A program made the position numbers and the translations under genes. Below, in pieces: positions 43,001 to 64,000 of a stretch of 64,000 bases of DNA (position 1 is its first letter; every line of letters begins with the position of its first letter). Under the pieces are notes generated by a model. The model was not told where the DNA came from. It made no database searches and saw only the letters and a list, made by a program, of their open reading frames with translations. Source of the DNA: Roridomyces roridus (taxonomy: Eukaryota > Basidiomycota > Agaricomycetes > Agaricales > Mycenaceae); assembly GCA_029378245.1 (NCBI GenBank), contig JARKIF010000059.1, positions 180,964 to 244,963 of the forward strand, read 5' to 3'.

Positions 43001-44804
43001 AAAAGGTCGTACATGGGGATCTTCGAGGGGTGCGTTCGACTTTTTCATTCATTCATGAATATGAACGCTGATTTTTTATCAAGTCGAACATCTTAGTTGA
43101 CGACGATGGGCACGCACAATTGGCGGATTTCGGACTCACCGTCCTATCCGACTCCACCACTACCCAAACCAATAACGGCGCGGGAAGTGTACGGTGGATG
43201 GCTCCAGAACCTCTACATCCCGAGGCTTGTGGGCTTCCCGACTTTGTCCGCAGACCGCCGAGCGATATTTATGCCTTTGGTTGTGTGTGTCTCGAGGTGA
43301 GTTTACGCCTCCCACCATGTAGTTGTCAACTCAGTTCTGACTCGACCTGTCTTCCTAGCTGTATACTGGGTACCCGCCATTTCATCATGAGCTTCTGCAT
43401 GACGCCCCAGTTATGCTTCAAGTCATGGCGCGGTGTCGGCCCAGCCGTCCAGCAGGGCACGTTATCCCAGACCAGATTTGGAATATCATGCAACGATGTT
43501 GGGCACATGAATATGCTCAGCGTCCCAGTATCATTGACATCGTCTTGGAATTGGGTGTTTCTCAGATCAATGCAGGTATGCTTTGTTGTGTGTTTGAACC
43601 AGTCGAGTTGATTGCTGAGCGTGTTTTCTCATAGACGATGGGATGGATGTTGATTCCCCGGACATCCGGGAAGACGTTTGGATGAATTCACCCAGTGCTG
43701 ATTCGGACGACCAATACGAAGGCTGGGTCGCACGGGCCGTTTCACCACTCACCGAATTCATCGACATGGCAGTCAATCCCCGACATCATTATCTCGATCT
43801 TCAGGAAATCGCCGACGGCCCTGGTGGGACGACGCTGTACGTCGCAAGGCTGGCAGAGGACAGGTACGAAGAGCTGACACTGCCCGACTCCATTCGGGCG
43901 GGGGATCAAAAGAACATTCAAGCCCGGCGTCCGACGTTCGTAGCTATCAAGGCTGTTCCTATAATGCCTACGGGCAGCACGAAGCTCGTTGAGGTGCTGA
44001 GGGAGTTGCGGACCATGCGGGGTGTTGAGTGTGGGAATATTCTGGGGATGGATGCGTTGTACGTCGACCCTGTGGAGGACCAGCTTTGGATTCGGATGGA
44101 GCTCATGACGAGGACACTTTCGAGTGTTGTTGCGCTCAATGCGGCTGGTTTGATTCTCTCCGATCGGATTATCGCTGGGTGTATCAAAGATGTACGTTAG
44201 CCTCGTTCTTGTCCTTGTGGTTGGAACTGACGCAATGCACAGGTTTTGTTGGCACTCGAAAATCTCGCTGCGAAGGGTGTCACACCGAGGGATTTACGCG
44301 CAGAGAACGTGCTGATCAACAGCGAGGGCGTGTTGAAACTAAGTACGAGTCCTGTACCTCCCGCAATCTGGGCCACAGACTGACGACATTCCAGCGAAAC
44401 TCGCGCATACGATTCAAATCCGCGAATTAGAAACTTCCTGGCGACCGAGATTCTCGGGGCCGAGGTCACTCGGTGCGCTCGTACGGGAACTGGCTTCTGG
44501 CCGTCGTCCACCGCTCAGCGCTGAAAGACACAACACGGAGGACTGGCTATCGCATCCCTCGCTAGCCAGCCGCAGCCCGTCGTTCCACGAGTTTATACGG
44601 ATGTGCGAGGATTTCGATGTGAGAAATTCGGGATACCGCAAGCTCATTGAGGTGCGTTTATTCCCTTGCCTTACCTTCGGGGCTGATTGGTTTGTATAGA
44701 CTTCTTTCGTACAAAACGCATGTGAGAGGCCGGCTCTTGCCCAGCTTTTGGTGCAGTGTACTGCTTTCGAGGGTCGGCTCCGCGAACAAAGGCGTCGGGG
44801 GTGA
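40013..44804 (+). CDS. VHS-domain / TKL kinase / PAK-like pseudokinase fusion
   Basis: Nineteen exons give 1271 aa: 40013-40081, 40132-40267, 40321-40438, 40490-40526, 40585-40750, 40808-40863, 40918-41541, 41603-41663, 41719-41862, 41916-42037, 42087-42410, 42463-42711, 42769-43029, 43084-43296, 43359-43575, 43635-44191, 44243-44342, 44395-44651, 44700-44804. Residues about 55-194 form a VHS-like superhelix (LILEVCDRVNSDATSREAV, FLETIAEVIRSPQTAQVV). A disordered linker follows to about 510, then a helical block common before such kinases (LALDGDAAQSVLDIVQD). The kinase has GGFGDVYKA, VALKK (Lys687), VVHGDLRGSN, ADFG and WMAPE. After a phase-1 intron a second, PAK-like kinase follows (LWIRMELMTRTLSSVV, VTPRDLRAENVLINSEG) in which DFG is replaced by KLA, so it is probably a pseudokinase. 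Endosomal targeting of signalling is inferred from VHS. Confidence 0.9.
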
Positions 44805-44920
44805 AGAAAAGAGAATTAATCGTATCGTAATGTTAATAATAACTAGCATCGGACTTTTGAACACACGCTGCATACCACTTTGTATTGAATAACACATAAT
44901 GTTTCCATGTCTCCGCTTTC

Positions 44921-44982
44921 TATGGAAGGCCGGACAGTCAAGCTTGTCAATCAGACGTCGGCTCACATTTTCGGTAATCGGA
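44921..44982 (+). repeat. left arm of a 2.1-kb inverted repeat
   Basis: TATGGAAGGCCGGACAGTCA and the following 40 bp recur in inverted orientation at 47023-47085 with only a few mismatches. The arm also contains GGCTCACATTTTCGG, versus GGCTCACGTTTTCGG in the other arm. It lies just downstream of the VHS-kinase stop codon. Confidence 0.75.
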
Positions 44983-45159
44983 CCTGGGAACCTCCCGCTT
45001 AGATTTACGTTCGGATCAAGACTACATCATGATGCAAACTTGAGTTGCATGGATTCGGCAGTTGGGTGACGGACTGTTACGGAGTGGGTGAACGATCACG
45101 TGACCCGACGTAAGTAACGCGAGATGCCACGCGCCTGTGGGTGCTTTGCTGACCGTGTG
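44983..45159. other. spacer between inverted-repeat arm and MITE
   Basis: There is no coding signal. It ends with ACCGTGTG (45152-45159), the left copy of the hAT-type target-site duplication. Confidence 0.4.
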
Positions 45160-45775
45160 TAGTGTTTTGCCGGCTACGGCTTGAAGCCCGAAGCCGGCAA
45201 AGCCGGGGTCCGGCTTAGCCGGGCCAAGCCAAGCCCAAGCCGGGTGCGTACCCCGGCTTACGGCTCCGGCTTGGGATTTCTCAAGCCCCAAGCCGGCGGC
45301 TAAGCCCCGGCTTCCGAGGCCAACTTCAGAGTCATCTCGGGAATGTCTTGAGCAGACCATTCGCCACCCAATGTAACTCAAAAAATACTCAAGATCAGCC
45401 ATTACTGGACTTTCAATTTCTCGAGTCCAACGATAGTGGAAACATTGACGGCTGATGATCATTATGATCCCATCAGCTGCCGGCTGGTAATCCGACTCTC
45501 AGAAACACCTCAGAAATACAAATTGCAACCCTTATTTTGGCTTTGGATCTGTTGAATGTAGCATACAGGAGTATATATTCATAGTACTTCATCTGTAGAG
45601 GGTCAAAAAACACGATTAAAAAAATAGACCAAAGCCGCCGGCTAAGCCGGAGCCGGGCCCAAGCCGGCCGGCATATCCGGCTCCGGCTTGGGCTTGGAGA
45701 TTTCCAAAGCCGGAGCCGGGTCAAGCCAAGCCCAAGCCGGCGGCTTCAAGCCAAGCCGGAGCCGGGAAAACACTA
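45160..45775. mobile_element. hAT-type MITE with 8-bp target-site duplication
   Basis: The 616-bp element starts TAGTGTTTTGCCGGCTACGG and ends with the inverse of TAGTGTTTTCCCGGCTCCGG. It is flanked on both sides by a perfect ACCGTGTG (45152-45159 and 45776-45783). TAGTG-type ends plus an 8-bp duplication are diagnostic of the hAT superfamily. The subterminal 150 bp on each side are packed with direct and inverted copies of AAGCCGG, CGGCTTGG and CCGGCTCCGG, which could bind a transposase or form long hairpins. The central 300 bp are AT-rich and carry no transposase frame, so the element is non-autonomous. The intact duplication suggests a fairly recent insertion. Confidence 0.85.
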
Positions 45776-45783
45776 ACCGTGTG

Positions 45784-47022
45784 TTCCTGATAAGTGAAAC
45801 CCGCCGCGAATGAATTACCGCACGTACTGCGGATTCGCTGAGCAACGGCAGGTAACAATATCGAGCACGTACCGAGAATTACGAGGCACACGAGTATTCA
45901 GCCGACCTAATGCTATCCATTCACATAAGAACAACAGGACGGCGGCAGCGAAGAATGGAGTTACAAGAGGAAGAAGGATGGGAGTGAAGGAGTGGACTCT
46001 GCAATATCTAGTTCCCTTGTGTGTATATAAGCTGCATGCCGCGTAATGTACCAAATACTCACAGGAGGATTAGTCTCAGGAGCAGGTAGGGACGATTCAA
46101 TGATTGGGTGGAGGAAGGCTTGACGAATATGGGCATCAGTTGCTGAACACGCGCGTTCTGCGCAGCATCATGAGCGGCGCGGACAGCCTTGCGCTATGTG
46201 AGAATCTTGCTGGTCATCATCTTCACCGCCCGAGTGGTTGTCGTCTTGGTCATTCGCGCCCTCGGGAAACACGCGCATACAGGGTTTGGGAGAAGAGGAA
46301 GATCGGGGAGAATGAACACGCACGCAATGAGCCACTTGAGTGCCTCCGTGACCCAAGCCTCCTCGTCATCGTTCGTTTCGAGGGGTGAGTCACATACTCA
46401 CAGCGTACAAGCATGCACTCTGACAATAAATATCGTCTGAGAGCGTGCACTTGTAAGTAGGAGGTCAATTTATCTGCAAGTCTGCCAGAAAATACGGAGC
46501 AAACATGAATATATGCGCCCAAGAGAGATGAAGGAGTCACTCACTGACAGCATCGGCACCATAAACCTCCTACACATCCTCCACTCCCGCGGGCAACGTC
46601 CACGGTGCACTGAAGCGATGATCTCGTTTCACACTCCACATTTTGATTTCGATGCAGCGTCGGCGTTGACGTATTAGATGGCAGGAAATAAACACTACCC
46701 GGCGGATGTCGTGGTGCAAGTTGCGCATCAGTATTGCAGTTTCGTACCTGAGCGCCAGCTGCAGTGGCGGCTAGTACCGGTCTCCCTTCTTCGCCCTGCA
46801 GGCTGCATAGCGACGTCCATGAGCACTCAAGCTCTCATCGGCGGAGGAGTTTGGATTGGCTCTTTGAGGGTATGTTGGTCAGGGACGCTGAGAGCGCTAA
46901 AAAGGCCGTAGGTACAAGCTTTTGACAAATTTGGTGATGGTTGTGAATCAGAGTGATCAGGCTGAGATTCAGAAAAGGGCATGAGCCCGACACGTGAGGT
47001 GATAGCAAAGGGAGTTTTCGGG
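45784..47022. other. unresolved region upstream of membrane copy C
   Basis: The stretch contains a hydrophobic plus-strand run (RILLVIIFTARVVVVLVI, about 46195-46255) followed by basic residues, and another near 46820-46870 (QALIGGGVWIGSL). These could be 5' exons of copy C or relics. No in-phase model connects them. Confidence 0.3.
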
Positions 47023-47085
47023 GTCCCGTTACCGAAAACGTGAGCCGACGTCTGATTGACAAGCTTGACTGTCCGACCTTCCATA
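47023..47085 (-). repeat. right arm of a 2.1-kb inverted repeat
   Basis: This is the reverse complement of the segment at 44921-44982. It sits immediately upstream of the word ATATCAAGTGGTCAGTGCGT, which is itself shared with the upstream part of copy B (minus strand near 30690-30720). The arm therefore landed next to an ancestral part of the membrane-protein gene. Confidence 0.75.
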
Positions 47086-47280
47086 GCTTTCCGCGTTCAG
47101 GCATGAGAAATATATCAAGTGGTCAGTGCGTGAGAAGATGGTTGGATAAAGGTTGACGCCGACTGATCCTCATCTCCTCTTGCCTCGACTCTCCATGTTC
47201 TCCACCATGAGAATCCTGAATCTTTACAGTTCGTGACGGTCCCCTGGCTTGACATACTCCAAGCTGAATACCCTGTCTAG

Positions 47281-48075
47281 ACCTCGGGCTCGTTCTCTCG
47301 GTCATACAGTTGTCCGTCGCCGGGTGGACGGTAGCTCGCATGCCCACCGGCAGTCAAGGCGACGAGCCTGAGAGTTCCATCAGTACGAGCATCCTTCCTC
47401 CGAGTGAGATTCGACTCATGACTTTCTATTCACTGCATAGATTATCGTGACTTTTTGGAGTATAATCTCCTTGGCGCAGTGTACAGTATCTTCATTTGGG
47501 CCATGCTGTACGCCTCACTCTTGTTGTCCAGGATTTTCACATTCATTCCACTCTAGCATTTTCATAGCTCGCTGGAAACGCGGACAACCACAACAGAAGC
47601 GCGCCGGCACCCACTTTCTGGTGGTACAAATTTATATTGTGTACCGCATCTTCCTTGGTAAGATACCGGCCCAACTCACACATACGCATGTTCCCTGATT
47701 CCATTGGCAGTAATGCTTGTCGCCTTCAGAAAACCCACCCCCGAATTCACAGCGATGGCCACCCATTGTCTGCGCGGGGTCGCCTTCCTCTCGGGTACCT
47801 GCGCTCCGCTTGGGGTAGCTGTTGTGTTTCCTGTTGTCGAGCTCTTGCTGGGTGAGCTAGCCTGGGTGCCTCATCCCCCTGCTCAGTACTGATGCATATG
47901 CACAGCCGGTGCGATCGCTTTTCTCATCCGGAATCGGGCCATTGCGAGACACGGCAGGGCTCAGGTCGACATGCCGCCGCCGCCGCCCAAGCTCGTTCCT
48001 GCCTGGACGCTGGGCGAAATTATGGGGTTGGATGATGATGAGCAGGAAGAGGGCTCCGTCGGTCTCAAGGTTTGA
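47281..48075 (+). CDS. multi-pass membrane protein family, copy C (5' exon unresolved)
   Basis: Exons 47281-47382, 47441-47525, 47557-47657, 47711-47851 and 47906-48075 are in phase. Their lengths 102, 85, 101 and 141 equal those of copy B; only the last exon is one codon longer. Hydrophobic segments include LGLVLSVIQLSVAGWTVA, LLGAVYSIFIWAMLYASLL, VVQIYIVYRIFLVM and GVAVVFPVVELLLAGAIAFL. The tail (QVDMPPPPPKLVPAWTLGEI, acidic stretch, GLKV) matches the other copies. Intron 2 is only 31 nt, unusually short even here, so the gene may be starting to decay or may use another site. A start codon upstream of 47281 was not found, perhaps because of the inverted-repeat rearrangement just upstream. 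Confidence 0.6.
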
Positions 48076-48505
48076 TTTCGAGTTTTGTCTACGGACCACC
48101 ACTGTCTTTTCACTTCTTTGAATAAATGTTGGCTTGCTGTGAGTACTCGGCGGGGAAGAATCAGGCGCCGAGGATCTCGCTGTATGCATTCAATATTCCC
48201 AATTAGAATCAATGCAAGTAGATAACACCCAAAAGTGGTTTATCCTTTGCGACGTCGACCTCTTGGACAACTCGAGAATCTTGCGAGAATCATAAGATAC
48301 TTAGGCTGAAGTTCAACTTGGCAGCTTTAAAAAGTGCCCGACGAAACAGAGCTCAATCAGGACACATTGGAGCGGGAGACATCGGTGATCCGCGCCGCCG
48401 CATCAATCTTTCACTCACACCACCATCGTCTCTGCAGTCCAGGCGAGTAACAGTCCTCCCTCGCTCTCGGATCTCATCCAATGCTCCCTCTCGAGCCTCC
48501 AACAG
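48076..48505. other. intergenic spacer
   Basis: Promoter and leader of the next F-box gene. Nothing else is recognised. Confidence 0.4.
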
Positions 48506-49484
48506 ATGTCAGAACCCGTTCGCGCACCAATCCTACCGCCGGAGCTGGAGCAAGCCATCTTTGAAGTGGCTGCATACGAGGAGCCACCGTGTGTCCCGCG
48601 ACTAATGCTGGTGGCCTGGCGCGTCAAGGAATGGTCAGGACTCGTTGCATCCGAATATCTCTCACTTATTTCTTCAGGGTCGAGCGATATCTATATCGGA
48701 TTCTCCTCTTCAGCGACGTCCCATCACCGGGTCTGCATGGAGTCTACGCATACCCGTATGACGCCTCCGAAGATGAGGACGAAATCCTCCTCCATACGCA
48801 CATTACCTCTCTTCCAATTGATCTCCTCAAGAGCTCGGTCCAACATCTCTGTGTGAGGGACTACGGCGAGCTGACGCAATTTTTACTTTCCACCTGCTCC
48901 TCTGTCGAGGACTTTTGGGGATCCCCACTCGGTGAACACGAGCGCTTGGGCAGCCTCCCGTTGAAACGTCTCCACTGCTCACTCTTCGACGTATTCGAGC
49001 CCACACCGGTCGACTTCTCCCATGCTTTGTTCTCCCACGTAACACATCTGGAGATTTTTGACCGCAGCATGACGGTGGACCTCCCGTCCTGGTCTGGTCT
49101 CGCTTCCATTCCGCACCTAACTCATCTCGCCTTGGATGAGGTAGATTTCCTCTCCATCGTTTCGGAGCTATTAGGCATGTGTGCATCCCTCCGTGTCTTG
49201 ATAATTCTCGTACCCGCTTCGTCGACGATTCCCGATGTGTCGCTAGACTTTAGGCGGGATCCGCGCTTGGTTGTCATGCAATGCAGCGAATATATCAAGG
49301 ATTGGCATATGGGCGCTTTGACGGGTGTCGATTTCTGGTCACGGGCGGAGGATTTTGTCGAGAAGCGGAGGGCGGGAGAGGTCGATCGTAAGTCCTAAAC
49401 ATCCGCATCCTTTTCTTCATTTGACTAGCTTTTCTAGGTTTGCAGTGCGTTATCGAGGTGGATGCAAGTACACTTCTTCCGTGA
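48506..49484 (+). CDS. F-box/LRR-like protein
   Basis: Three exons (48506-48633, 48678-49387, 49438-49484) encode 294 aa. ILPPELEQAIFEVAAYEEPP followed by CVPRLMLVAWRVKEWVERYL is the F-box-like signature (P-x-E...I.E.A, then LVAWRVKEW) shared by many basidiomycete genes. Leu-rich segments include LLSTCSSVEDFWGSP, SHALFSHVTHLEIFD, GLASIPHLTHLALDEVDF and LGMCASLRVLIILVPA. If the last intron is not removed, the frame would stop a few codons after exon 2 at VDRKS. Function as an SCF receptor is inferred. Confidence 0.8.
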
Positions 49485-49910
49485 TGTGTATGTACATACT
49501 TGGTTTTATTTCTCGCTCGGCACTGGCGGGTTCCACGATTTCGTTTCAAACATTTCCATCTGCCACGTGGCCGCGAGCCCATCCGTTCGATTGCGCTCTA
49601 TACAATCACAACATCGTCGCATCGACTAGTAACAGTGTGGGTGCAGATTCAATGTGTTCTTGTCTTGCCATCTTCCCCTATCTTCTCATGTCTTTACCGG
49701 ATCTAGACTCAAGTGAAGTTTCCATTTTCTCTTCACAACCTCACGTCCATTGTGCCGAGGCCACTAAATCGAGACCTCCGAAGACGACCACCGCCTACGA
49801 AACCTCAAACGAAATCTACCCCTGATCATGAATGTCGATCCTGACTTAATGTCGATGATGCCTCAAGAACAGAACGGCTACGACTCTGTAGAAACGACAA
49901 TCTCCCCGCC
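49485..49910. other. intergenic spacer
   Basis: The space lies before the decayed membrane gene. Several ATGs at 49828-49860 are in a frame that does not continue into the membrane protein. Confidence 0.4.
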
Positions 49911-51468
49911 ATGGGACACATGTATGCCGAGCCAGCTCCTCAGCGTTCGGGTGTCTGGGTCGTTCTTACCGGTGTGGCGATCGTGTTTGCCATCCTCCTC
50001 ATTACTGCAGGCGTCCTCGTCGAAGTTTTCGTAATCGGCACATACCAGCTCGACGCTGTCAACCGCGCTATACTCACGACGGCGCCTCTGAATCGTATTC
50101 TTACGATTGCTCATTGGTCGTCCAACGTCTTCTCCATGACGGTCCCCGTAACGACTGGATTGAGCGCCTATTTTTTCGCGGGGAGGTGGCGATGTGAATA
50201 TGCCGACGCCATACCAGTGAGTGATTCTGTCTCTTTCTGTCCTCGCGACTAAGGGCATTTGGCAGACTCGCTATTATGATTCGCACTCTCAAAGGTGCGG
50301 GTCTCGTATCCCTGTGGAATAGCGCCAGCTATATTGCTGGGCGTGGAAGCATCCCAGGCGGGACCAACCTAGCGAGACCTCCCATCTGCGACACGCCGTC
50401 TCCCTCGTTATCTTCCTCCTCGTCCTGGGCTACGCACTTAGCGGGGTGGAAACCTGGCTCGGCGCAACCTCCACCGCTTTCCTGTATCCCCTCACGACAA
50501 TCGGCCCAGGGACCGGCTCGCAATATCAGTTCTCAGCGGGCTCATAGCTGGGTGCGTGTACTTTATTTATCGGGCTTGGCTTTCGTCTCATACAATCACG
50601 CAGGAGCGGCGGTAATGGGATGGCCCAGGCACCGCGGTACAATACGATGAATGGGATTTCAACTGAGACCGTCATCGCATTTACCAACGACGCAACGGCC
50701 ATCATGGTCCCCCCAGCTTTACAACTTCATCCGTGTGTACGTTCTGCAGTCTTGATAACCTGCGACGTGAAATCGCTCAACGTGACATACCACTACTTCA
50801 ACAGCAGCTACACGCTTCTCGGCAGCGAGCCGACGAACGTTGACCAAGCGTGGCGTGTTGAAGACGGCTCATGGGCCGTCGTGTACTACGGCACTGCGCC
50901 TATCGATACCGGACTGTACTCGGGCAACTACACGGAAGCGTTCGCTAAACAGTTGTCGTCAATCAGCTTGGCTAGTATGAGTCATGACGGCCTACGTCGT
51001 CGAGGAGGCACCTGTCCTCGAGTCTGAATCCACCGTGACGTACATCGGTTCCTGGCTTCCTATTGCGCCGTTCTTGCTATTGATCCTCATCCCGGTCATA
51101 TACGCGTACGTACTTCATCTCGTCCATCCGCTGATTACAGCTCAACCACTGCCAGCATCGGTGTCACTGTGATCACCCTCCTCGCCGTCATCGAACACAG
51201 CAGGTCCCCACATGCTGAATTTGCGCGCGGAATCCTCGTCGAACCTGCTACGGTACGTTTCTATATTTCTTTCCAATTCACTCCCCCTCATTTCACGCCA
51301 TAGGTGGTCTCGGCGGCATGGGTTCCGGAAGCAGCCAGACGTTTGGCTGCGCGTACCATGCTTGAGCTGTTTGGCAATGAGACGTCGGAAGATCGGTTGG
51401 TGCTTGCGGTGGATCGTGTGCCCGATGGGTCGCCTGTTATGCGACAGCGGCGTGCACTGTCGAGATGA
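49911..51468 (+). pseudogene. decayed multi-pass membrane protein
   Basis: Strongly protein-like blocks occur in the right order but in different frames: GVWVVLTGVAIVFAILLI (TM), VFSMTVPVTTGLSAYFFAG (TM), then shifted to MPTPYQLAIMIRTLKGAGLV and GGTNLARPP, shifted again to LRHAVSLVIFLLVLGYALSG (TM) which runs into a TAG, then AFTNDATAIMVPPALQ, SYTLLGSEPTNVDQAWRVED, shifted to ESTVTYIGSWLPIAPFLLL (TM), and an intact C-terminus VVSAAWVPEAARRLAARTML...RALSR. At least three one-base shifts and one stop are needed. The blocks match an uncharacterised Agaricomycete membrane family with one large extracellular loop. It is either a pseudogene or carries several sequencing errors; the clean frames of neighbouring long genes favour decay. 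Confidence 0.68.
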
Positions 51469-52217
51469 TTGTATTGGAGACAAGGAAATTGCGGGAAGTC
51501 CACGAATATCATTGCACAACCCTGTAAATCAATTTCCGCGAGTTCCGTGAATCCTAGGCTGGAAGTGCTGGAAGTTGAGATTTGGTTGAGACAAGGTTGA
51601 GACGGTGACTGGTTGTGTGACCAAGTTTGGACGAAGTCGTGACACAGTGATTGCCGCGAACTGGATCCGGATGACTAATCTCCTCTCTCTCCTCCACCTT
51701 GGTCTTGCGATGGCTGCGCAACTCATTACCACTATAATGCGTTGAGAGCCTTTCTTCATCTTCATTTCTTCATGAATATCTGGACGACTTCCCTCCAGTC
51801 AGCTGAAGACTCAAGTGCTGCCAGTGGCGCTGTACTGCGACTGTCTGAGGCGCAGACAAGGTCTTGAGCTGTATGTGACGTATACTACTCTTTCGACTGC
51901 TAAGTATCTCTTTGGTGACATCCAGTCTCGACAAATCTCGTGTTCTCTCAGAATGAGATTCAAATTCCTTTTGGTGCCGGGCCCGAGCTCAAACGCGCCT
52001 TGGGAAAAGCCGGTTCCCCATTACGATGCATCACGGCCTGGCCACTGGCCAGGGAGGTACTATTAGTGTTCCGTCATCAACGAATGATGCGCCACAGTGA
52101 TCAATCGGCGTCTCCTTTTGCGAATAGCGGCCGCCGTCATTGCCGCCGCACTAACGCGGTGTCGACCCTCATTCACGTTTATAAATCGAAACATGCTCTC
52201 CCCCAACCGCAACCTCC
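51469..52217. other. intergenic, promoter of the P450 gene
   Basis: A TTATAAAT motif near 52180 could be the TATA element of the P450 gene. Repeated words GGTTGAGAC and GACTGGTTG occur near 51580-51620. No gene is supported. Confidence 0.4.
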
Positions 52218-54339
52218 ATGAATACCGTCGCAGCGAAACCCAGCAGCACTGCCCTCCTCTTTCTTCTCAATGGATTACGGGAACGACTTCAGTCGACCAA
52301 GCCTTTCACTGCATTCTTCTACAGCCTTGTAGTGGCCGCCTTGGTTTCCGCGCTGCGGCAACGGCGCCGACAGGTACGTAGCACTCGATCGCGCCATCCC
52401 CCACTGAAATTAAACTCCACTGACAGCGAACGACCATTCCCGCCGTGACTGGGACTGGCAACATCTTCTCTTCCTACATGGCGGGGTATTACTACCTTAC
52501 GAACACGTCGGACGTGATCCAGCAGGGCTACGCTCAATACCCCAACGCCGTCTTCCGCGTCCCAACGCTCTCGCGGTGGGACTACGTCGCCACCGCACCG
52601 CAGCACGTCCGTGAGATTGCGTCGGCTCCGGAGAGCGTTTTGTCGTTTGCAGATTCTGCGCGGGATGTGCGTCCTCCTTTCTCATTTTGCGCATCCGTTG
52701 AAAAACCGTGAGTAGTCCCTCGAGTCGGATTACACTATGGGCCCCGACTTTTTGGAGAATCCGTACCACGTCAAGTGCATCCGCAACGGCCTGACTCGCA
52801 ACTTGGCGCGTACCTACCCCGATCTCCTCGATGAGATTGTCGTCAGTTTGAATGACGTCCTGGAGCTTCAGGGCAACGGTGCGTGGTGTCGTTTCCGCAT
52901 CATTTCCGCCTAACATTCTTCCTGGCAGAGTGGAAAGCATTCCACGTCCTGCCCAACATGCGCCAAGTCATCGCCCGTATCACGAATCGTATTTTCATCG
53001 GGCTGCCTCTTTGCAGAAACCAAGAGTTCCTCGACCTCAACATCAACTATGTCCTGGATATTTTCACTCGCGGGTCGATCATCGGTCTCCTTCCTGGGTT
53101 CCTCAAACCGTGAGTTCCTGACTCTATTTCTTACTCTATCGGACACCAATCCGGAAACAGAGTCTTTGGCCCTCTCATCTCGAGCCGCAAGAGCTCCCTC
53201 CGCCGGCAAATGAAGTTCGTCGCGCCTATGATCGAGGAGCGTCTCGCGAATGAGGCCAAGTACGGTCCTAATTGGCAGGAGCGGCCGGTGCGTTCATTTC
53301 CTCTCACCTGCAAGGCCGCTGAACAAAGCTGACGCAGAACGATTTAATTACCTGGCTGCTTGACGAAGCGAGGGGCGACGAGCGTTCAGTGCCGCGTCTC
53401 GCGAATCGGATTCTCGGCGGGAACTTGGCGGTGCGTTTGGCGGTACATGCTTGATGAATGCTGAAGGTTCACCTGACATAGGCTATCCATATGACCACTA
53501 GCGTTCGTCTTTATCCCTTGCTCTGCGAAAGAGTTCTCATACTCTACATAGGCAATGACGGCAGTCCTCTTCGACCTCGTCGCAAACCCCGAATACATCC
53601 AACCCCTACGTGAAGAGGCTGAGCACGTCGTTGCGGAGGAGGGCTGGTCCAAAGCCGCGCTGGGAAGTATGGTCAAAATCGACAGCTTCATCCGGGAATC
53701 ACAGCGCCTGGGAGCTGCATCTCGTTCGTGTCTTGTCTCCCTCTTTTTCACTTCCCTAGATTCGAAACCCAATTTCTGCAGTGGGAATTGTACGCAGGGT
53801 TACCGACCCGGAAGGCTTCGTCTTTTCCGACGGCACGCGTCTCCCGCACGGCGTCTTTGTCGGCGTGCCGAGCACGGCTATTCATTACAATGAAGGTGCG
53901 CTCCCTGATCCTCTGTGTCACTTTGAACTTATCATGACAAAGCCAACTTTGAAAATGCCTCTCAATTCGACGGATACCGATACTCCCGCGTCCGTAAAGA
54001 TAACGAGAACGACGGCGAGGCGGCAGGCGCGCCGACAGTGTTCAACCGGCAGATGGTCGTGACCAGCGCAGACCACCTTTCCTGGGGTCATGGCAAACAT
54101 GGGTGCCCCGGCAGGTGCGTGCTTCTTCACGTTCCTTCCATCCCCTCTCTTGCTCACCCGAATCGGCCCGCAGATTCCTGGCTGCGACGGAAATTAAAAC
54201 AATCCTCGCACATATGCTCATCAACTACGACATCAAAGCCGAGGTCGACGGCGTGCGGCCTAAGGATGTGTGGTTTGGGATTATGCGGATGCCGAGTTTG
54301 GAGGGACGGATCATGATTAGGAAGCGTAAGGTGGATTGA
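52218..54339 (+). CDS. cytochrome P450 monooxygenase
   Basis: Eleven exons (52218-52373, 52427-52666, 52716-52878, 52929-53109, 53161-53287, 53338-53430, 53482-53502, 53552-53723, 53782-53895, 53943-54114, 54174-54339) encode 534 aa. Exon 7 is only 21 nt, yet keeps the phase. A hydrophobic N-terminal anchor (FFYSLVVAALVSALRQRRRQ) directs it to the ER membrane. The K-helix ExxR motif is RESQRLGA (Glu376-Arg379). The heme loop is WGHGKHGCPGRF with the thiolate Cys477. The I-helix region reads AIHMTTSAMTAVLFDL. It would hydroxylate an organic substrate with NADPH and a P450 reductase. The substrate is unknown; terpenoid tailoring is possible, but the terpene cyclase is 25 kb away. Confidence 0.93.
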
Positions 54340-55446
54340 GGGAGGCGCCTGTTGGCCTACACATAATCTATCCTTATTTCCCACAGACATAGATACCTTT
54401 ATTCTACTTCTCACAAGGCGCGACCGGGCTGTACATGTAGACTTCTACCGTGCCATTGCCGATCGATTTCAATTTTCACGGCTACAGCCTTCGCCGAAGC
54501 ACGGTGGCTTTTGGTGGGACAGACCCCAGTTCACTCTCCGCCTATGACTCGGGTCCCTGTAAGGAATCACATAAAGCTGTTGAGGGCCGAGGCGTGTCCT
54601 GTTCATGGCCGTTCAAAAGAATGGACGGCGGAAGGCACACACCCCAAAGTTCCGTAAAAGCACGAACAAGATGGGATGTCATGCACGTTGCTGTTGAGTG
54701 AGTCAAGTCCGGGGAACTTGCACATTGATATGTATGTACGTATGCAGCGTGAGTTCAAACCTTCTTCACAAACTTGCCGGTTTCGGACCATGAAGCACGC
54801 TAGTGTATGCCTTTTGGAAGAAGTGCAACCTGGGTCTAGAGGCCACAAGATGTTGAACATAAATATTGATACCATGGATGTTCTATTGTTCAATTTCTCG
54901 CACTTTCACATTGTTCTATTGTTGCATTTCCACCCCCTCCAACTATGGGTTTATTCGATCAGGGGCCGGGCGGCTGTGGATTGGAAGGCTGCCAAGATGA
55001 TCCAGTGTCAATGTGCTGTTTCGTGGAGCTGTTAAACTGACCCGTGATGAAGACGGCTCTTGTGTGACTCAAAAGAAATCTTCAATAGACCAACCTCAAA
55101 CTGCACCTGGCATTTACAAAACATTTGCCAGCGGCGACAGACTTTGAGCTCAGCAAGTCGCAGCTCATTTCAGACTCTCTTAGTACCCCATCAACGATCA
55201 TGGCCGTACAACAAGCCCACAGAATGGGACGGCAACCCGGCGGCGTGAACTGGAATCATCGGAACAAACAGCCCTACCGCTTGGAAGAGCTTTTAATGGT
55301 CTTTATCGGTTCTTTCCTGAAGTCTGATAGATCCTATGGGAGTACCGTGGCTTCTTTACCTCACATCTCCAATCAAGCGCCGGGTTATCTCTGTAGGAGA
55401 TTCTTCAAATGTTGGCCAAATTTACTGTGGCGTATGAGTCTGGGTG
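54340..55446. other. CpG-poor intergenic region
   Basis: Composition changes here to AT-richer and CpG-poor DNA, which continues through the kinase paralogue downstream. Open frames of 60-119 codons have no domain. No repeat element with clear ends was found. Confidence 0.4.
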
Positions 55447-55452
55447 TATAAA
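55447..55452 (+). promoter_or_regulatory. TATA box of the VHS-kinase paralogue
   Basis: TATAAA lies 60 bp upstream of the start codon at 55507, a normal core-promoter spacing, and supports expression of the paralogue. Confidence 0.5.
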
Positions 55453-55506
55453 GAGTGGGCAGAGCCCCCCCCCATTTCTTGTGGCACCCGGCACCATATC
55501 CATACC

Positions 55507-58500
55507 ATGCGCCGCTTCTTCACCCGTAAACCAGTCCAACATCCCTTGCAACCAACACCATTCCCATCTCTTCAGGTAGGAACCATTCAACATTAAGCTC
55601 ACTATCTGGAGTCCTTGCAGAGAAATGAAACAGCATCATCAACATCCCAAACATCCCCCACTTCTACTCGCAAAACCTGGGCACCAGTCAACACTTTGAC
55701 AAATCAAGATAGTGTTCAAGTACTCATCATCCGCATGATTCGTGAGTTGAACACTGAAATTCTTGCGGAAAATTCAACCACCTGTGATTTGCAGAGTTAC
55801 TCACAACAGAGGGTTCCGCAGACCGCTCCTCGATATTGGAGGTGTGCGACCGGGTGTCCAAAGAGGAAACTGCCCGCCAGGCCATTCGCACATTGATGCA
55901 AGAGTTTCAGTGAGAGAACTGTCGTTCTACAGTGAAAATTTGTTGATTTATAGCAACAGGCAGGGGACCACTGCGGCACAACTCTCTGCAGCCAGTGTTG
56001 GTGTCTCTTTATTTCAATCAAATTAGCAACCCACATTTGCTCCAGCTATGGGGCATCCTTCTTCACAACTCTTCTACTGTGTTCATTTCACAGTCCGGCG
56101 CTCCAGATTTTCTTGAAACACTTGAGGCATTGGTGTTATCTCCACAAACTACAGAGGCAGTGCGGGCTCGTGTGCTCCAGGTACTCGGGGACACTGTATA
56201 CCGAAATCCAACTCGTGTGTATTTCTTGCTGTTCAAAATTCACTGAGTGCTGACTTTTCTTCCTAAATGGCAGGGGATGTGTTCCATAGACTCTGGGTCA
56301 GACTGAAACCCTCTGACCAGCCGGAAAAGGCATGTTAATTCATTCTTTATCAAGTTATAGCCTAAGACGTGGATTGGTTAGGGATCACCATACAGTGATT
56401 GTGATGACATCCTTCGCCCTTCAGCATCCCATCCCAGTGCAGGGACAAGTACCAATCACAGCAGTGCCCAGCAGTCCATCCTGGATCGGGCCAGCTCCCC
56501 AGTAGATACACACCTGGACCTGCGGTTTCCTCCCACTTGGGAGCCCCCACCCACCTATGAGAGCTCATTCATACATTCCACCAATGCCGAAGCATCCTCT
56601 ACTCATGATTTCAGCTCCGTATCTGACTCCGAGGACTGCCCAATGGAGCACCCAATGACAGCTTTGACCCCATTGAGGAGTGACCAATCACATATTCATG
56701 GTTCAAGAAATCGGCAGCAGCCTTTACCTTTTCCGCCAATGGTGCACACATCTATTTTTCACCTGTTTCAACTGAACTGATTGGAATACAGTCTCCTCCA
56801 TTGCCACTTGTACCAAGGCCTACATTCCGGCAACGCCAACGTGAGATTTTTTGACACTTTCTACCAGTGGTTGTGTTGGTTCTAGTACAAGCCTCTTACA
56901 GAAACCAACCTCGAAGGATCCCTGGTGAGCACAAGTCAATTTTTCGTCATTGGGTATAAGCTCATCATTCTTGTTTATAGAATGCACAGTTGCATGAATA
57001 TTCCAATTCCCCGACAAGTGGAGATGCTCCAATGCGAACCAGAAGTCGGAGTAGCCCAGCACAAAGACGTTTACGTGAGTACACTCGGAGAAATTGGCTT
57101 GCATATGCACCGTCAACTCACAGAACAATATTTAGCCCTTGCCCCGGGAGGAAGCAGATCTAATACAACAATGCTTCCTGAAGCCTCTCACAAATTTTCT
57201 GGGGCAACTATGGCTCTTGAGGAGGACAAGACATTGATATACCATGTATGCAATAAGGGAACTCGCAACTCTACCCATGATTGAATATTTGTGCTTCTAG
57301 CGTACTTTCAACTACCTTCAAAGTGTTGCATTTGCGAGGAGTAATCTAGAGTAAGACTTGCCCTTACTAATGTGACACTTGATGCTAATCATTGAACAGT
57401 GCAATGTCTCGATTGGAAAACCTGGGAAGGACTGAAAGGCCCAACACATTGGATTCGGCTGTCAATGTTTTGAAATACCGCGGCATTCTGATGGAGGTGA
57501 GTCCGGCCATCTTTATCTTGTACTCATCATATATTGAACCGGCTTAGATCTCTACTTCACTGGAGGTGACCAATGACCCGGACCTTGAAGCCATATGCAA
57601 TGAGGATCAAGTCATTGTTGTTGACATCTTGTTGTCCATTTTATCTTCGGTCACTGACCAACATGCCACATTGCTGGCATTGGATGGGCAATCTGCTCTG
57701 TCAATTCTGGATATCATGCAAGATGTGTGTATTTTTTGTGGGACATTCAGTGGTGAACTAATCAGGAATTAGACACTCGACAAATGCCTCTTGATTGATG
57801 AACATGTGAAACTGAAGGCACAAAAAACGATTGAAAAACTTGTTAGAAGCTCTCACAGGTTTCCTTCATCGCTCTTCATATCTGGTGTTACACAGAGGGA
57901 ACATATGGACACTTGTTTTGGGGTATCATCAATTTCATTGCTCACCCATAAAAGATTCACTGAATAAATTACAGGGCTTCGGAGATGTTTACAAAGCAAT
58001 GTATCAAGGAAGTGCAGTGGCTCTCAAGCTCCTGCGAGGAATCCAGAGTTCCAAACAACAACATGTACTACGTGTGAGCTTTCCTTAGGATCAGCCTACA
58101 AAACAATGTAACAACATCTGTTTGTAGCAATTTCGTCGAGAGGCTCTTGTCTGGAAGCGTCTGTGCCATCCAAATATTGTCCCACTCCTGGGGATAGACA
58201 AAGAGACCTTTGACCCCTTTCCCTGCATGGTCTCGCCTTGGATGCCGAATGGGACAGTCATTGAATATTTGTCTAAATTTCAACACAGTCAACGACAGAA
58301 AATTGTTGATCAGCTGGTCCGTACTCTGAGCTCCTTCCAGACTGGATACTTATTTTGGATAGATCCCTGAGATTGCTCAAGGCCTGGCATTCCTTCATGA
58401 ACAGAATGTGGTACATGGAGACCTCCGCGGAGTCAGTTCACTGTATTATTGTTGAGCATATTTGGGTAAAGCTAACCATGGTTTTTAGTCCAACATACTA

Positions 58501-60186
58501 GTGAACGGTGCTGGGCATGCCTGTTTAACAGATTTTGGGCTTTCTGTGATTACCGATATGACAGCAAGCTCACAGACCAATCATGGCCATGGAAGTGTGA
58601 GGTGGATGGCTCCAGAGGTATTCCAACCACCGGAAGACTATGACCTTGAAACTACAGCAAGAAGATCACCCAGCGATGTGTACGCATTCGGTTGTGTTTG
58701 TCTGGAGGTCAGTAGCTTTGAAAACTGCCCTGAATACCATTTTACGTGGATACCCCAGCTGCACACTGGGCTTCCACCATTCCATGGCACAATTGTGAAT
58801 AACAATACAGTGATACTGCGGGTCATGCTAGGGAGCCGACCAAGTCGCCCACCTGGAAACCTCATTTCTGACCAGCTCTGGGAAACCATGACCCGCTGCT
58901 GGTCTGCTGAAATTGCTCAACGCCCCAGCATCATCGATATCCTCCTTGGGCTTGGAAGTTTGCCTTCCTCACTCATCATTCAAAGGGTGACTCAACGAGA
59001 AGATAATTCGTCCAGTGGGGTAAATATGCCTTCAATCATGGGATTTTTATTTCATCACATTGTCAGCCCTACTCGGATGTTTACAAGGCAGTTCATCAGG
59101 GCAAATCAGTGGCCCTGAGACGAATGCGAATGACAGAACACTTCCATGTCCGTTCTGTGAGTAGAGCCAAGATGCTCGGACCAGACACTTACTTCTGTTA
59201 GAAATTCTGTCGAGAAGCTATTGAATGGAAGCGTCTCAGGCATGACTATATTGTACCGTTGTTGGGTATTGATGCGGAAAGTTTCACCACATCTTTGTGC
59301 ATGGTGTCACCATGGATGCAGCACGGGACAGTAATTCATTATCTGTCTACAATCACGGAGTCACACCAGTGGCAATCCACTGTCAATAATTTTGTCAGTT
59401 TATTTCATCTTGATCCTACCCCCCAGGCTCATGTTGAATTTCATTAGATCTCTGAGATTGCTCAAGGACTTTCCTTTTTACATGTCCACAATATTGTACA
59501 TGGAGACCTCCGAGGAGTCAGTGGCCTTCCTGATATGATAACCTGAGCCTGCAAACTGAAAATGCTTCCAGTGCAATGTATTGGTCACTGATAGTGGCCA
59601 TGCTTGTTTAACCGACTTCGGTCTTGCGGGTTTGTTGGATACTACAACGAGCACACTTGAAAGTTTTCAATGGACAGCACCTGAAGTCCTGCAACCGGAG
59701 GCTCATGGTCTTGAAAAATCTGTCCGAGGAACACCATCCGACATCTATGCCCTCGGATGTGTTTGTTTGGAAGTGAGTGGCTTTGACTGACAACTTGATC
59801 CTGGTGAATATGAAATGCTGACGGTTTCCCAGCTTCACACAGGAAAACCACCATTTCATGGAGTACCTTTAAGCCACGCAACATTGATAATGCAAATCAC
59901 AGTTGGACTCCGTCCGCCTCGTCCACCTGGGCACATTATCTCAGATCAACTATGGAATATTATCCAAAAGTGCTGGCTCAAAAAGTTTTCTCAACGCCTC
60001 AGTATACAGGATGTGATTCAAGAACTGATCCTGATCCAAGTACCTTCTAGTTGTCTCCCCAAAATCCATGATGTTCACCTTTTCTTTCTGAAGGACTTCA
60101 ATGAAATGCATTTTCGACATCCAGTTGCTCTGGCAAGAAGGCACGGGATGCTAGTAAACACCGGCAGCATCCAGGTTTGGGACTGA
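55507..60186 (+). CDS. VHS-domain protein with tandem TKL kinase domains (paralogue)
   Basis: Twenty-five in-phase exons give 1145 aa: 55507-55575, 55621-55741, 55795-55909, 55954-55996, 56046-56214, 56274-56329, 56382-56741, 56792-56840, 56902-56924, 56981-57074, 57124-57245, 57301-57350, 57400-57496, 57548-57724, 57773-57922, 57975-58073, 58128-58316, 58363-58431, 58489-58707, 58759-59019, 59067-59156, 59202-59393, 59448-59516, 59572-59772, 59833-60186. The N-terminal VHS-like region (KTWAPVNTLTNQD, SILEVCDRVSKEE, LWGILLHNSSTVF) aligns with the gene at 40013, with near-identical early exon lengths. Kinase 1 keeps GGFGDVYKA, VALK, HGDLRG, DFG and APE. Kinase 2 begins inside exon 20 (LPSSLIIQRVTQRE) as a tandem copy, but its glycine loop became GPYSDVYKA and the lysine became VALRR; HGDLRG, DFG and APE remain. 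Catalysis by domain 2 is doubtful. Confidence 0.88.
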
Positions 60187-61100
60187 TGGGGGACATGAAT
60201 TGGCCGGAACTGGGCAATGGACATGTGCAAATGAATAATGTGGGCAGCATTGTGCAGCGTATAATACTTGGAACATACACGTCCTTTTTTGGCTTCTGTA
60301 ACATTGTTGTGGTAGTAATGCCGGGCCTACTTACTGCTGGTGTGGCATTATAAGTACTTGGTGTGATTTAGGAGTTGGACAGCGGCCCCTGAAATGATTG
60401 CATGTGCGCCGGTGACGGTGAGAAACAGTCATTGATGAAAATCATAATCTGAATGATGCCATCAGACTGCGCATGAAATGATTCAATAATAGAGGATCAA
60501 TTCAGCGCTGATAGATGACGGTGGCCTCTGAAGACTTCTGGCTGAAATATGCATCTGCGCCTGCAGTCGGTGATGGCAATCATGATCCGATCGATGTCAT
60601 CAGACTCCAGGGAAATGATGCAATGGCGGATCTGATGAACATCTGGTTCGATTCCAACTTCGCTCCCAGTATTGATCGGCTGTTGCCTGTACGGCTGATA
60701 ATTGCACTCAAGGCACCCAAATGGGGAGCAGCATGGGTGAGAAATCTAGCATCCATTGAGTGCCACAAATGTTCGGCTGGGCGATGTGTAGCAAGGGGCA
60801 AAGATGGATTCATTATCAGTTGAACTTTGTGAATTCTTGGCCGAAGCGCACAAGAACCGCAAGTGAACTGCGCCATTGCGGTTAGTTGATGAACTTCAGA
60901 GATGATCGGCTGTTGCTCGTCCACTCCATATTTGCACCAACTACATCTGTTTCTCTTCCCTGTTTATGGTTAAAGGTTGTTCTGACGATTAGAATCAACC
61001 AGCGCTCAAGCAATGTCAATCATACTAAACTCTGTTCGTACGATACCCACTAAACATAGGTATCAAATTGAACAAGGTTAAATGTCACTGAGAGGAAGGG
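60187..61100. other. intergenic, no supported gene
   Basis: A 102-codon frame (60515-60823) has no domain. Words such as GATGCCATCAGACTGCGC recur in part near 60460 and 60595. It probably holds the 3' region of the kinase paralogue and the promoter of the peptide-precursor gene. Confidence 0.4.
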
Positions 61101-61106
61101 TATAAA
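61101..61106 (+). promoter_or_regulatory. TATA box of the repeat-peptide precursor gene
   Basis: TATAAA is placed 80 bp before the start codon and is followed by a pyrimidine-containing leader (TTTACCCTCTTTCCACAG). This is a strong core-promoter arrangement for a small secreted-protein gene. Confidence 0.6.
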
Positions 61107-61180
61107 GTGCCTGTGGTGCAGGTTTACCCTCTTTCCACAGAACCTCGCAAATTCAATCCGACGCTCAAGCAACCTTCAAC

Positions 61181-61769
61181 ATGCGCTTCTACCTGACCCT
61201 CCTCGTCGCCGCGGCACTCAGTGGACTACCTGCCTTTGCGGCACCCGCTGGTGCTATTGCTCGCCAGGTCCCCGAGGAGCAAGCCACGTATGTTGCCCGA
61301 TCACATACATCGCATGAGCTGACATTCTATTCTTTTTAGGACAGGAAAGAATGGAGTCATTGTGCCGTACGGCAAGAGGCAGACCCCGGAAGAGGATCCG
61401 ACGTACGACCTTTTCCTTTGTATGAGACCCAGCCTTACTTATCATCCATCGTGCGGAATGAATACAGCAAGAGCCCGAATGGTGTCATCATAATCTACGG
61501 AAAGAGGCAGATTCCTGAGGAAGAACCCACGTAAGTCACCACTTGCTGAACTTCTATCAAAATGAATGCATCATGACCGAATGTAGGATGGGAAACAACG
61601 GGCAGATCGTACCCTACGGTCGCAAGAGACAGGTCCCGGAGGAACAGGCTACGTACATGATACTTCTCCTTTCCTACTTTCAAGTTTGCTGAATGTTCTT
61701 CCAAGAACTGGCACAAACGGCCAGGTCGAACCTTACGGTATCGGCAAGCGGGAGATCCATGCGGCCTGA
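61181..61769 (+). CDS. secreted Kex2-processed repeat-peptide precursor
   Basis: Five exons (61181-61287, 61340-61402, 61468-61530, 61587-61652, 61706-61769) encode 120 aa. MRFYLTLLVAAALSGLPAFA is a signal peptide with a good AFA-A cleavage site. The rest is four tandem units, each beginning Q-x-P-E-E, passing through a Thr and N-G-x-(I/V), and ending Y-G-(x)-K-R: units close with NGVIVPYGKR, NGVIIIYGKR, NGQIVPYGRKR and NGQVEPYGIGKR, then a short EIHAA tail. Lys-Arg sites are cleaved by the Golgi protease Kex2, so about four peptides of 19-25 residues with N-terminal Gln (possible pyroglutamate) and a conserved Tyr-Gly end are expected. All four introns are phase 2 and split the same Thr codon, so each unit is carried by an exon cassette. 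There are no Cys and no CaaX box. It resembles fungal repeat precursors of signalling peptides and of cyclic RiPPs; which one is unknown. Confidence 0.85.
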
Positions 61770-62448
61770 CTCCTGTAGAACTGTGAATCTCCGTGGTTTA
61801 ATATGAATATGATCGGTAGTGTTGAATGTGAATTGTACTTCAAGTTGGCGCGATTTGCACTGGAGTGGAATTGAATCTCACCCTGCTTGCCCAATCACAT
61901 TCATCGTGATGCGTCTCAACGTGTTGCCCGTGGCATATCAATGACCACCTCTGTGTGTTCCACCGCTGGGAATGCCAGAGTGCCATGTAAATGCTAAATT
62001 GAGGGATTTACCACAGAAGAGTCGAGACCCCCTAAACTGTGATATCAACTTGCTCATAGTAAGACGGACATCAAAAATACCGCAGATCTTGTGGTCCGTT
62101 GTTGTACAGTCTCGCATCGCAGCACAGGAATCAGGATGCCCGAGAGGTCCCTGATAGTGGTGCGGCCGAGGAAGGTGCTCCGAGAGTGAGTGTCCAAGTT
62201 CTCTTTCAATTTGGAGCGGCGACTACGCGTAGCACAGTGTAACAGTCAAGGCGCGCCGAAGAGGTGTCCGAGGTCCCGGTCAAAGCCACTGTTCCTGACG
62301 TTCCCGGACGTTTAACTCTCGTCATCCGAGTTGTGCTAATCAACTACGTACTCGCGGAGTCCAGACAGCCTGAGAAGGGGGAATCGCGTGCCAGCACACA
62401 ACCGACAGCTTATCGTCTCCCCTCACCTTGATCCCCTCACTTCACTTC
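61770..62448. other. intergenic with a duplicated exon fragment
   Basis: The segment 62041-62096 (ATATCAACTTGCTCATAGTA and following bases) closely matches 62939-63000 inside the adjacent membrane-protein gene, so part of that gene (intron end plus exon start) was copied upstream. Otherwise nothing coding is seen. Confidence 0.5.
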
Positions 62449-63975
62449 ATGCCATCTGTGAACGTGAGCGTCGATGTTACCAGCCCACTTATCAACTATG
62501 CTGGAAACTGGCAATTGGGAGGTGCGGATGGGGACCCGGGCACGGTCAAGTAAGCTCCCACAGATACACACACACCGTTAGCTCCTGACTCCTCCCGCTC
62601 AGTTATTCGATGCAAACTTTCCAGTACTGCCAAGTCGTACCGTGTACAGCAAGTATCCTGTTCAACGGGTCTGAAGTTCACTTTGTCGGTGCCTGGCGGG
62701 GGAATAGCGGGCCCTGGCAGGTGGATCTGGACGAGACAACGTATGGGCCGTTTGCCCCTGCGATAAACCAGCCGCCCTGGGGAATATTCCAAGTGGACAA
62801 ATACAACAGGACGGGGCTGTCTTCATCTGGGCCGCACATGTTCACAGTGGGAAATCTGCCACCGACGGTTTCTGCACAGAATACAATCGACCTGGACTAA
62901 GTGCGTCGGGATAATCCAGACTCCAGATACTTACTCTGATATCAACTTGCTCGTAGTTCTGGTGGACGACGGACATCAACAATACCGCAGATTTCGTGAT
63001 TCAAGACGACAGCCACGCGTTCTCATATTCGCCCGTAACACAGTGGGATGCCGACCTCGCTATATTGGCTCTCACCGATTTCAGCCAAAATACAGGACAG
63101 TGCGTACCTTTCGCTCTCAAGAATCCGTTCCTATTGCTCATTTTGTAGTGTCACCTCGGCGAACGGCGCAGAAGCCACACTGGAATTCATGGTAAGTAGG
63201 AATCGAGACTTCCGGCTGCTGGAATCTCACTGGTTGAAAGGGGGACCGGGTAGCATTATACGGCGCGGTCGGCGACATCGGCGGTCATACAGCGTCTCCA
63301 TCGACGGGGGCAGCCCCGCCTTGTACTCCTCCAAGACCAAGTCTGCACGGTGGAAACCTAACACAGCAGATGATCTTTTACGCCGACCATCTCCCGGCGG
63401 GGAATCACACCCTCACGCTGACCTCGGAGGCTAGTTCGTCGAGTGATTTCATTTCGATTGATTTCGCTATTGTGATGGTACGTGAGTGCTTGGAAATTGT
63501 AGGAGAGAGATCGACAACTCTGCATGGTTCCAAATAGGTCAATACAGGTGCCACTGCTCCGCCTGCACCATCGTAAGTTCAATATTCGCTGTCCCAAGGC
63601 AAGTTCATCTAACTCGTTCGGAGCCTTCACCTTCAGAAATCCACAGCTTATCCAAAGGAGCCCCGCGGGGATCATCGCCGTACAGCACTCGCCATATCCT
63701 CCATCTGCCTACTTCTCCTCGTCCTCTGGCGCCGCCGCCGACGCGGTGCAGTGAAACTCGACCTCACCGAACCGGAGGAAAATCACAACGGCGAAGGCGG
63801 TGCCAATGTTGGGTACATCCCGTACCTCGTTACGCCGTTTGAGGAAGGCCGCGGTGCAGATCCGCGAGGTACGACGCGCTTTCGAATGTCGGGTGGGATA
63901 CGTCGAGCCGAGACGCCGTGGGGCTCGTTAGCAGGGCCTCGCGTGGGAAGGGGGATTCTAGTCTGTATGTTGTAG
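62449..63975 (+). pseudogene. decayed single-pass membrane protein with beta-rich ectodomain
   Basis: The start MPSVNVSVDVTSPLINYAGN and a first intron (62551-62602 approximately) are clean. The ectodomain continues FVGAWRGNSGPWQVDLDE and FTVGNLPPTVSAQN, then LD followed by TAA exactly at a splice donor (GAC TAA GTGCGT). The next exon reads FWWTTDINNTADFVIQDDSH in the expected phase. Further on, VALYGAVGDIGGH is followed by SVSIDGGSPALYSS one base out of frame, and MIFYADHLPAGNHTLTLTSE returns to the first frame. The end has a TM helix (AISSICLLLLVLW) with RRRRRGAVKLDL as stop-transfer and an acidic cytosolic tail. Two ectodomain modules, a TM helix and a tail are the usual Agaricomycete layout. 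One nonsense codon and two shifts suggest loss of function. Confidence 0.62.
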
Positions 63976-64000
63976 GAAATTGAGGCCGAGTTGAGCTCGA

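Follow-up and report, generated by a model that had tools for sequence, protein, structure and literature searches.

Mushroom peptides released from repeat precursors

The closest described relative of the gene reported here is the precursor KEP 497993 of Coprinopsis cinerea, a KEX2-processed repeat protein (KEP). Mass spectrometry detected pyro-QVPVDEPA, pyro-QIPAELPTKSINGNIEPY and a form ending in ...PYK in C. cinerea, all from this precursor, and a ...PYKV form was seen after expression in Pichia (PMC9769878). These peptides are described as linear, with an N-terminal pyroglutamate (pyroGlu), and are no longer detectable in the knockout (PMC9769878). According to the same report, only pyroGlu forms could be confirmed in C. 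cinerea, the genome of which contains a putative glutaminyl cyclase, and at least 13 agaricomycete homologues of KEP 497993 exist. Processing of the C. cinerea KEP peptides is said there to persist in kex knockouts; six kep knockouts, including that of 497993, had a normal appearance and no visible phenotype, and synthetic KEP peptides had no antibacterial activity (PMC9769878). Among the papers listed in a literature search, which left subscription papers and preprints outside its scope, no other one dealt with the function of the KEP 497993 family.

KEPs have also been classified across fungal genera by Umemura. As described there, type G-1/P-2 (#7) is the KEP type present in most genera, with 64 KEPs from 62 strains and 49 genera; its Tyr content is high, and none of the 64 has a DUF3328 neighbour (PMC7329392). 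The G-1 genera include Coprinopsis, Pleurotus, Hypsizygus and Panaeolus (PMC7329392), and KEP 497993 or a homologue is reported from these four and from Lentinula (PMC9769878). Lentinula, for which Vogt reports the homologue, is yet absent from the G-1 genus list. We infer that type G-1 corresponds to the KEP 497993 family, the two having been compared by description.

A four-unit precursor gene in Roridomyces roridus

The stretch of Roridomyces roridus DNA analysed here, called the window, is 64,000 nucleotides long (C457:180964-244963), and its end is the end of the contig. Unless a contig is named, positions are those of the window. The five-exon model of the earlier note, lying at 61181-61769 on the plus strand, was rebuilt and again gives a 120-aa precursor with four repeat units, its four introns all being GT-AG and of phase 2; the splicing is predicted from the DNA. 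Exon 1 (61181-61287) would encode a likely signal peptide, a short linker ending in a single Arg, and the start of unit 1, QVPEEQAT. After intron 1 (61288-61339, 52 nt, with a CTGAC branch-like site), exon 2 (61340-61402) carries the end of unit 1, NGVIVPYG-KR, and the start of unit 2, QTPEEDPT. Intron 2 (61403-61467, 65 nt) is followed by exon 3 (61468-61530), with NGVIIIYG-KR closing unit 2 and QIPEEEPT opening unit 3, and intron 3 (61531-61586, 56 nt) by exon 4 (61587-61652), with NGQIVPYG-RKR and the start of unit 4, QVPEEQAT. Intron 4 (61653-61705, 53 nt) leads to exon 5 (61706-61769), which holds NGQVEPYGIG-KR, the tail EIHAA and the stop codon TGA. Each of exons 2 to 4 joins the end of one unit to the start of the next, each mature peptide is encoded across two exons, and each of the four introns splits the Thr codon at one and the same place in the unit. 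A consensus search gave branch-site-like motifs in introns 1 and 2 and none in introns 3 and 4. A TATAAA box on the plus strand (61101-61106), 80 nt upstream of the ATG, is a consensus match only.

The precursor runs from a hydrophobic N-terminus through a linker ending in a single Arg and four units to the five-residue tail EIHAA. Residues 4-21 have a mean Kyte-Doolittle hydropathy of 1.78. The units and their sites are QVPEEQATTGKNGVIVPYG-KR, QTPEEDPTKSPNGVIIIYG-KR, QIPEEEPTMGNNGQIVPYG-RKR and QVPEEQATTGTNGQVEPYGIG-KR, and the site that precedes unit 1 is a single Arg, not dibasic. KEPs are defined by tandem similar units split by Kex2 sites, and here three units are followed by KR and one by RKR, which supports the Kex2-cut repeat build first proposed for this protein. 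Tyr-Gly stands before the basic Kex2-type site in units 1-3 and Tyr-Gly-Ile-Gly in unit 4. The layout given previously can be refined, with QxPEE at the start of each mature unit and NGx(I/V)xxYG at its end. No Pfam family matched the precursor at E <= 0.01. A CaaX-type pheromone precursor was considered and rejected, the C-terminus of the protein being EIHAA.

A second copy of the gene lies at C124:439041-439626. Over 60801-62300, C124 and C457 are identical at 1500 of 1501 positions and the gene itself does not differ; for the flank 47086-63999, identity to C124 is 99.5%. The C124 copy looks like the other nucleus of a dikaryon or a duplicate contig and, being near-identical, adds no comparative information. 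A stretch of about 2.2 kb (44920-47086) is found on C457 and is absent from the otherwise collinear C124; either an insertion or a difference in assembly could account for it.

Ten proteins were scanned against Pfam, namely the precursor and a selection of nine from the many reading frames around it, and four of them, the precursor included, were left without a family. The neighbours matched LURP-one, IBR (under cut-off), GH5 cellulase and two tyrosine-kinase-like pieces (one under cut-off). The tyrosine-kinase-like pieces lie upstream of the precursor at 58489-60186 and 42463-44200; PF07714 matched at 58489-59115 and weakly at 59791-60183, the remaining pieces having been read by eye. Downstream, at about 62450-63975 and at the contig end, is a gene whose product looks by eye like a secreted or single-pass membrane protein.

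Match to a published C. cinerea peptide

Over a stretch of 18 residues, each of the four units aligns with pyro-QIPAELPTKSINGNIEPY of KEP 497993 with no gap. Units 1-4 scored 42, 43, 53 and 53, whereas shuffled sequences averaged 15 to 17, and 0, 1, 0 and 0 of 5000 shuffles reached these scores. By eye, the start of pyro-QVPVDEPA resembles that of the precursor units as well. The precursor had been called undescribed-looking, a description that fails because its units match a published peptide. Most likely it is a new member of the known KEP 497993 kind of linear mushroom peptides, a membership judged from a single published peptide some 20 residues long. Linear peptides with N-terminal pyroGlu, an option in the earlier note, gain support from the same match. 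A large protein search with the precursor gave 99 word-sharing candidates, none at E <= 10, and the strings NGVIVPYG, NGVIELY and ATKSNGG stood in none of the papers listed in a literature search, subscription papers and preprints being outside its scope.

Age of the repeats and a probable relative in the same genome

Of the 19 positions in a unit, nine do not vary (Q1, P3, E4, E5, T8, N12, G13, Y18 and G19). Differences between units over 114 codon pairs number 31, 22 and 74 at codon positions 1, 2 and 3, and units 1 and 4 have 15 of 19 residues in common with only 4 codons identical. Across the six unit pairs, dN ranges from 0.14 to 0.50; dS came out at 2.55 and 2.05 for two pairs and could not be calculated for the other four, which we take as synonymous sites at or near saturation. 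Since the units are conserved while synonymous sites appear near-saturated, the repeats are old and have been preserved as protein sequence. Chance reading frames were considered and rejected, given the codon-position pattern and the four introns in the same unit codon, and the gene appears genuine. The coding similarity of the unit pairs was reached by 0, 0, 0, 0, 2 and 0 of 300 shuffles. Similarity between intron pairs is weaker (79, 23, 47, 2, 1 and 10 of 300 shuffles); part of it must stem from the splice sites, and the introns may to some extent share an origin.

A degenerate DNA pattern for NGx(I/V)xxYG-K-R gave four matches in the 90.8 Mb genome (501 contigs), namely exons 2 and 3 of the precursor gene on C457 and on C124, and its reversed control gave none genome-wide. 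An earlier DNA pattern search was uninformative, with 12 matches against 12 for the control and the precursor gene not among them.

One weak match within the genome (E 0.0055) is a frame that contains nine ATKS units, for example NNIPEQEATKSNGGGVIELYNR. The place is C491:1685237-1688563 on the minus strand, the 301-aa frame lies at about C491:1686317-1687219, and there is one copy in the assembly. It has (I/V)P, Thr, Gly, Ile and Tyr in the same order as most Roridomyces units, and TKS is common to its units, unit 2 and the C. cinerea peptide. Scores of three C491 unit variants against the four precursor units were reached by 0 to 27 of 2000 shuffles, and those of four variants against the C. 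cinerea peptide by 1 to 18 of 5000. The 301-aa frame contains no dibasic site, its units being bounded by single Arg. From these comparisons the C491 frame is probably a divergent relative of the precursor. A further search with the pattern (P/A)TKSx(N/D/S/G)GxI found three places, of which two are one sequence present on two contigs, and none is a KEP by eye. This pattern cannot match the precursor gene, where an intron splits the Thr codon, or most units of C491, with their one extra residue, and the search therefore excludes only intron-free relatives with the C. cinerea spacing. Another weak match, on C335 (E 0.28), showed no repeat by eye and was rejected.

It is quite improbable that the precursor is an unrelated KEP that converged on the KEP 497993 motif and forms a separate family with its own function. 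Short repeats can converge, the comparison with KEP 497993 is limited to one peptide, and the C491 frame shares the core motif yet lacks dibasic sites; the 18-residue match, however, reaches beyond the core in every unit.

Proposed processing route

Membership of the KEP 497993 kind suggests a route to the mature peptides. The precursor would enter the secretory pathway, where cleavage by Kex2-type proteases would follow each Lys-Arg as well as the lone Arg ahead of unit 1. The basic residues would then be removed by a Kex1-type carboxypeptidase, and the new N-terminal Gln would become pyroglutamate. The predicted products are four linear 19- to 21-residue peptides, pyroQ-x-PEE-x-(P/A)-T-xxx-NG-x-(I/V)-xx-YG, that of unit 4 carrying a further Ile-Gly; they may be trimmed further to ...Y. 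For the linear pyroGlu forms of units 1 to 4, the calculated [M+2H]2+ values are 985.497, 1021.010 and 1028.470 with the end YG and 1079.500 with the end YGIG of unit 4; with the end Y they are 956.986, 992.499, 999.959 and 965.937. Most likely the peptides would serve as an extracellular signal directed at other organisms or at hyphae nearby. We give the whole account, a KEP of the 497993 kind yielding linear peptides by the Kex2, Kex1 and pyroGlu route that serve as an extracellular signal, a probability of roughly 0.86.

Profile searches of the genome bear on the enzymes. The Kex2-type P domain (P_proprotein) matches at two places on C480. S10, the family of Kex1, has 82 match pieces in the genome, although the family is not specific to Kex1. 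The glutaminyl cyclase family PF05096 has no match in the genome. An M28 exon with the stretch FFDGEEAFEQWTDTDSIYG, from a gene at C480:1746378-1747230, minus strand, is glutaminyl-cyclase-like: its best solved relative is 3si2_A, a glutaminyl-peptide cyclotransferase (E 8e-16), and the 34 solved relatives that reach E <= 0.001 carry the name of a glutaminyl cyclase or are CG32412/CG5976 chains, but for one peptide hydrolase (1.6e-6). The presence of these enzyme families makes the processing route possible, and is not proof of it.

Cyclic and amidated products

Kex2-cut repeats are the usual precursor build of dikaritin-like RiPPs (PMC9233826, PMC7329392), and epichloecyclins are described as Ile-Tyr crosslinked (PMC9233826). 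The precursor could accordingly be read as a dikaritin- or epichloecyclin-like RiPP, with UstYa/DUF3328 enzymes from genes elsewhere in the genome crosslinking the Tyr of each core. This Tyr is invariant, every core also contains Ile or Val, and the genome contains PF11807 (UstYa, DUF3328) with at least 28 match pieces, such counts being lower bounds. A P450 fragment also lies about 7 kb upstream of the precursor gene (E 0.00036, under cut-off); nothing ties it to the precursor peptide. However, none of the PF11807 match pieces is on C124 (1.12 Mb), where about 439 kb and 682 kb flank the gene on its two sides, or on C457. The earlier note had seen no UstYa-type gene nearby, and this holds well beyond the window. 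KEPs with DUF3328 neighbours are reported to have them at a mean distance of 3.09 genes, and 103 of 1680 basidiomycete KEPs (6.1%) have such a neighbour (PMC7329392). The nearest relative, KEP 497993, yields peptides described as linear (PMC9769878). Dikaritins have a UstYa/DUF3328 gene close to the precursor; the absence of one from both gene-bearing contigs makes dikaritin-like cyclisation, entertained before, very unlikely. Elsewhere in the genome, UstYa/DUF3328 pieces are clustered, with two to three each at C1:2513021-2516444, C334:2126181-2127836 and C57:1497777-1507105, and these places are possible RiPP loci.

C-terminal amidation, by which the Gly before the basic site would become an amide as in animal neuropeptide precursors, is very unlikely: Gly directly precedes the site in four of four units (YG-KR, YG-KR, YG-RKR and IG-KR), even in unit 4 with its two extra residues, but the amidating enzyme is missing throughout fungi according to a review (PMC6529398), the related C. 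cinerea peptides as reported have no such Gly (PMC9769878), and PF03712 and PF01082 have no match in the Roridomyces genome, an absence weakly shown because no control genome gave a match either.

Significance and comparison with known systems

The precursor gene is a clearly resolved addition to a mushroom peptide family, with a single unit boundary in each exon and near-saturated synonymous change between its units, and it names four exact peptides for synthesis and testing. From the conservation of four non-identical units it would seem that the fungus benefits from the peptides, although the C. cinerea knockout looked normal. Their most likely role would be a signal in biotic interactions. 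A wider proposal, which we consider unlikely, is that this gene and the rest of the 497993 family make up the Tyr-rich KEP type of some 49 mostly agaricomycete genera and represent an ancient endogenous mushroom peptide hormone, with the non-identical units as distinct ligands and the C491 product, cut at single Arg, as a parallel ligand.

Among systems known for Kex2 processing, ascomycete alpha-factor type precursors also release tandem peptides by Kex2. Judged by eye, the Roridomyces units differ in lacking Trp and in starting without a Ste13 site of the X-Ala or X-Pro kind, Pro being third and not second. The comparison also draws on a remark on WXW in PMC7329392. The XSDW motif of Le Marquer 2019, reported as conserved in Basidiomycota (PMC6339444), differs from the unit motif found here. 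In the G-1 profile, as described, Tyr often has Asp nearby (PMC7329392), whereas the Roridomyces units are mostly without such an Asp.

The protein resembles the precursor of the epichloecyclins (GigA) in that it is likely cut by Kex2 and carries several cores as imperfect repeats containing Ile and Tyr (PMC9233826). Epichloecyclins, however, are cyclic nonapeptides, whereas the Roridomyces units have 19-21 residues, no UstYa-type match near them and a linear relative. With the dikaritins (ustiloxin, phomopsin, asperipin) it shares Kex2-cut repeats with a core Tyr; dikaritins are described as having UstYa-type crosslinking and clustered genes (PMC9233826, PMC7329392), and no such gene is found on C124 or C457.

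The likeness to KEP 497993 covers the Kex2-type repeat precursor, Gln-initial units and a similar unit length. The Roridomyces units end in Tyr-Gly (Tyr-Gly-Ile-Gly in unit 4), whereas the C. cinerea peptides end in ...PY, ...PYK or ...PYKV, without Gly. Common to the C. cinerea peptide and the units is Q-x-P-x-E-x-(P/A)-T-xxx-NG-x-(I/V)-xx-Y, to which unit 2 adds PTKS.
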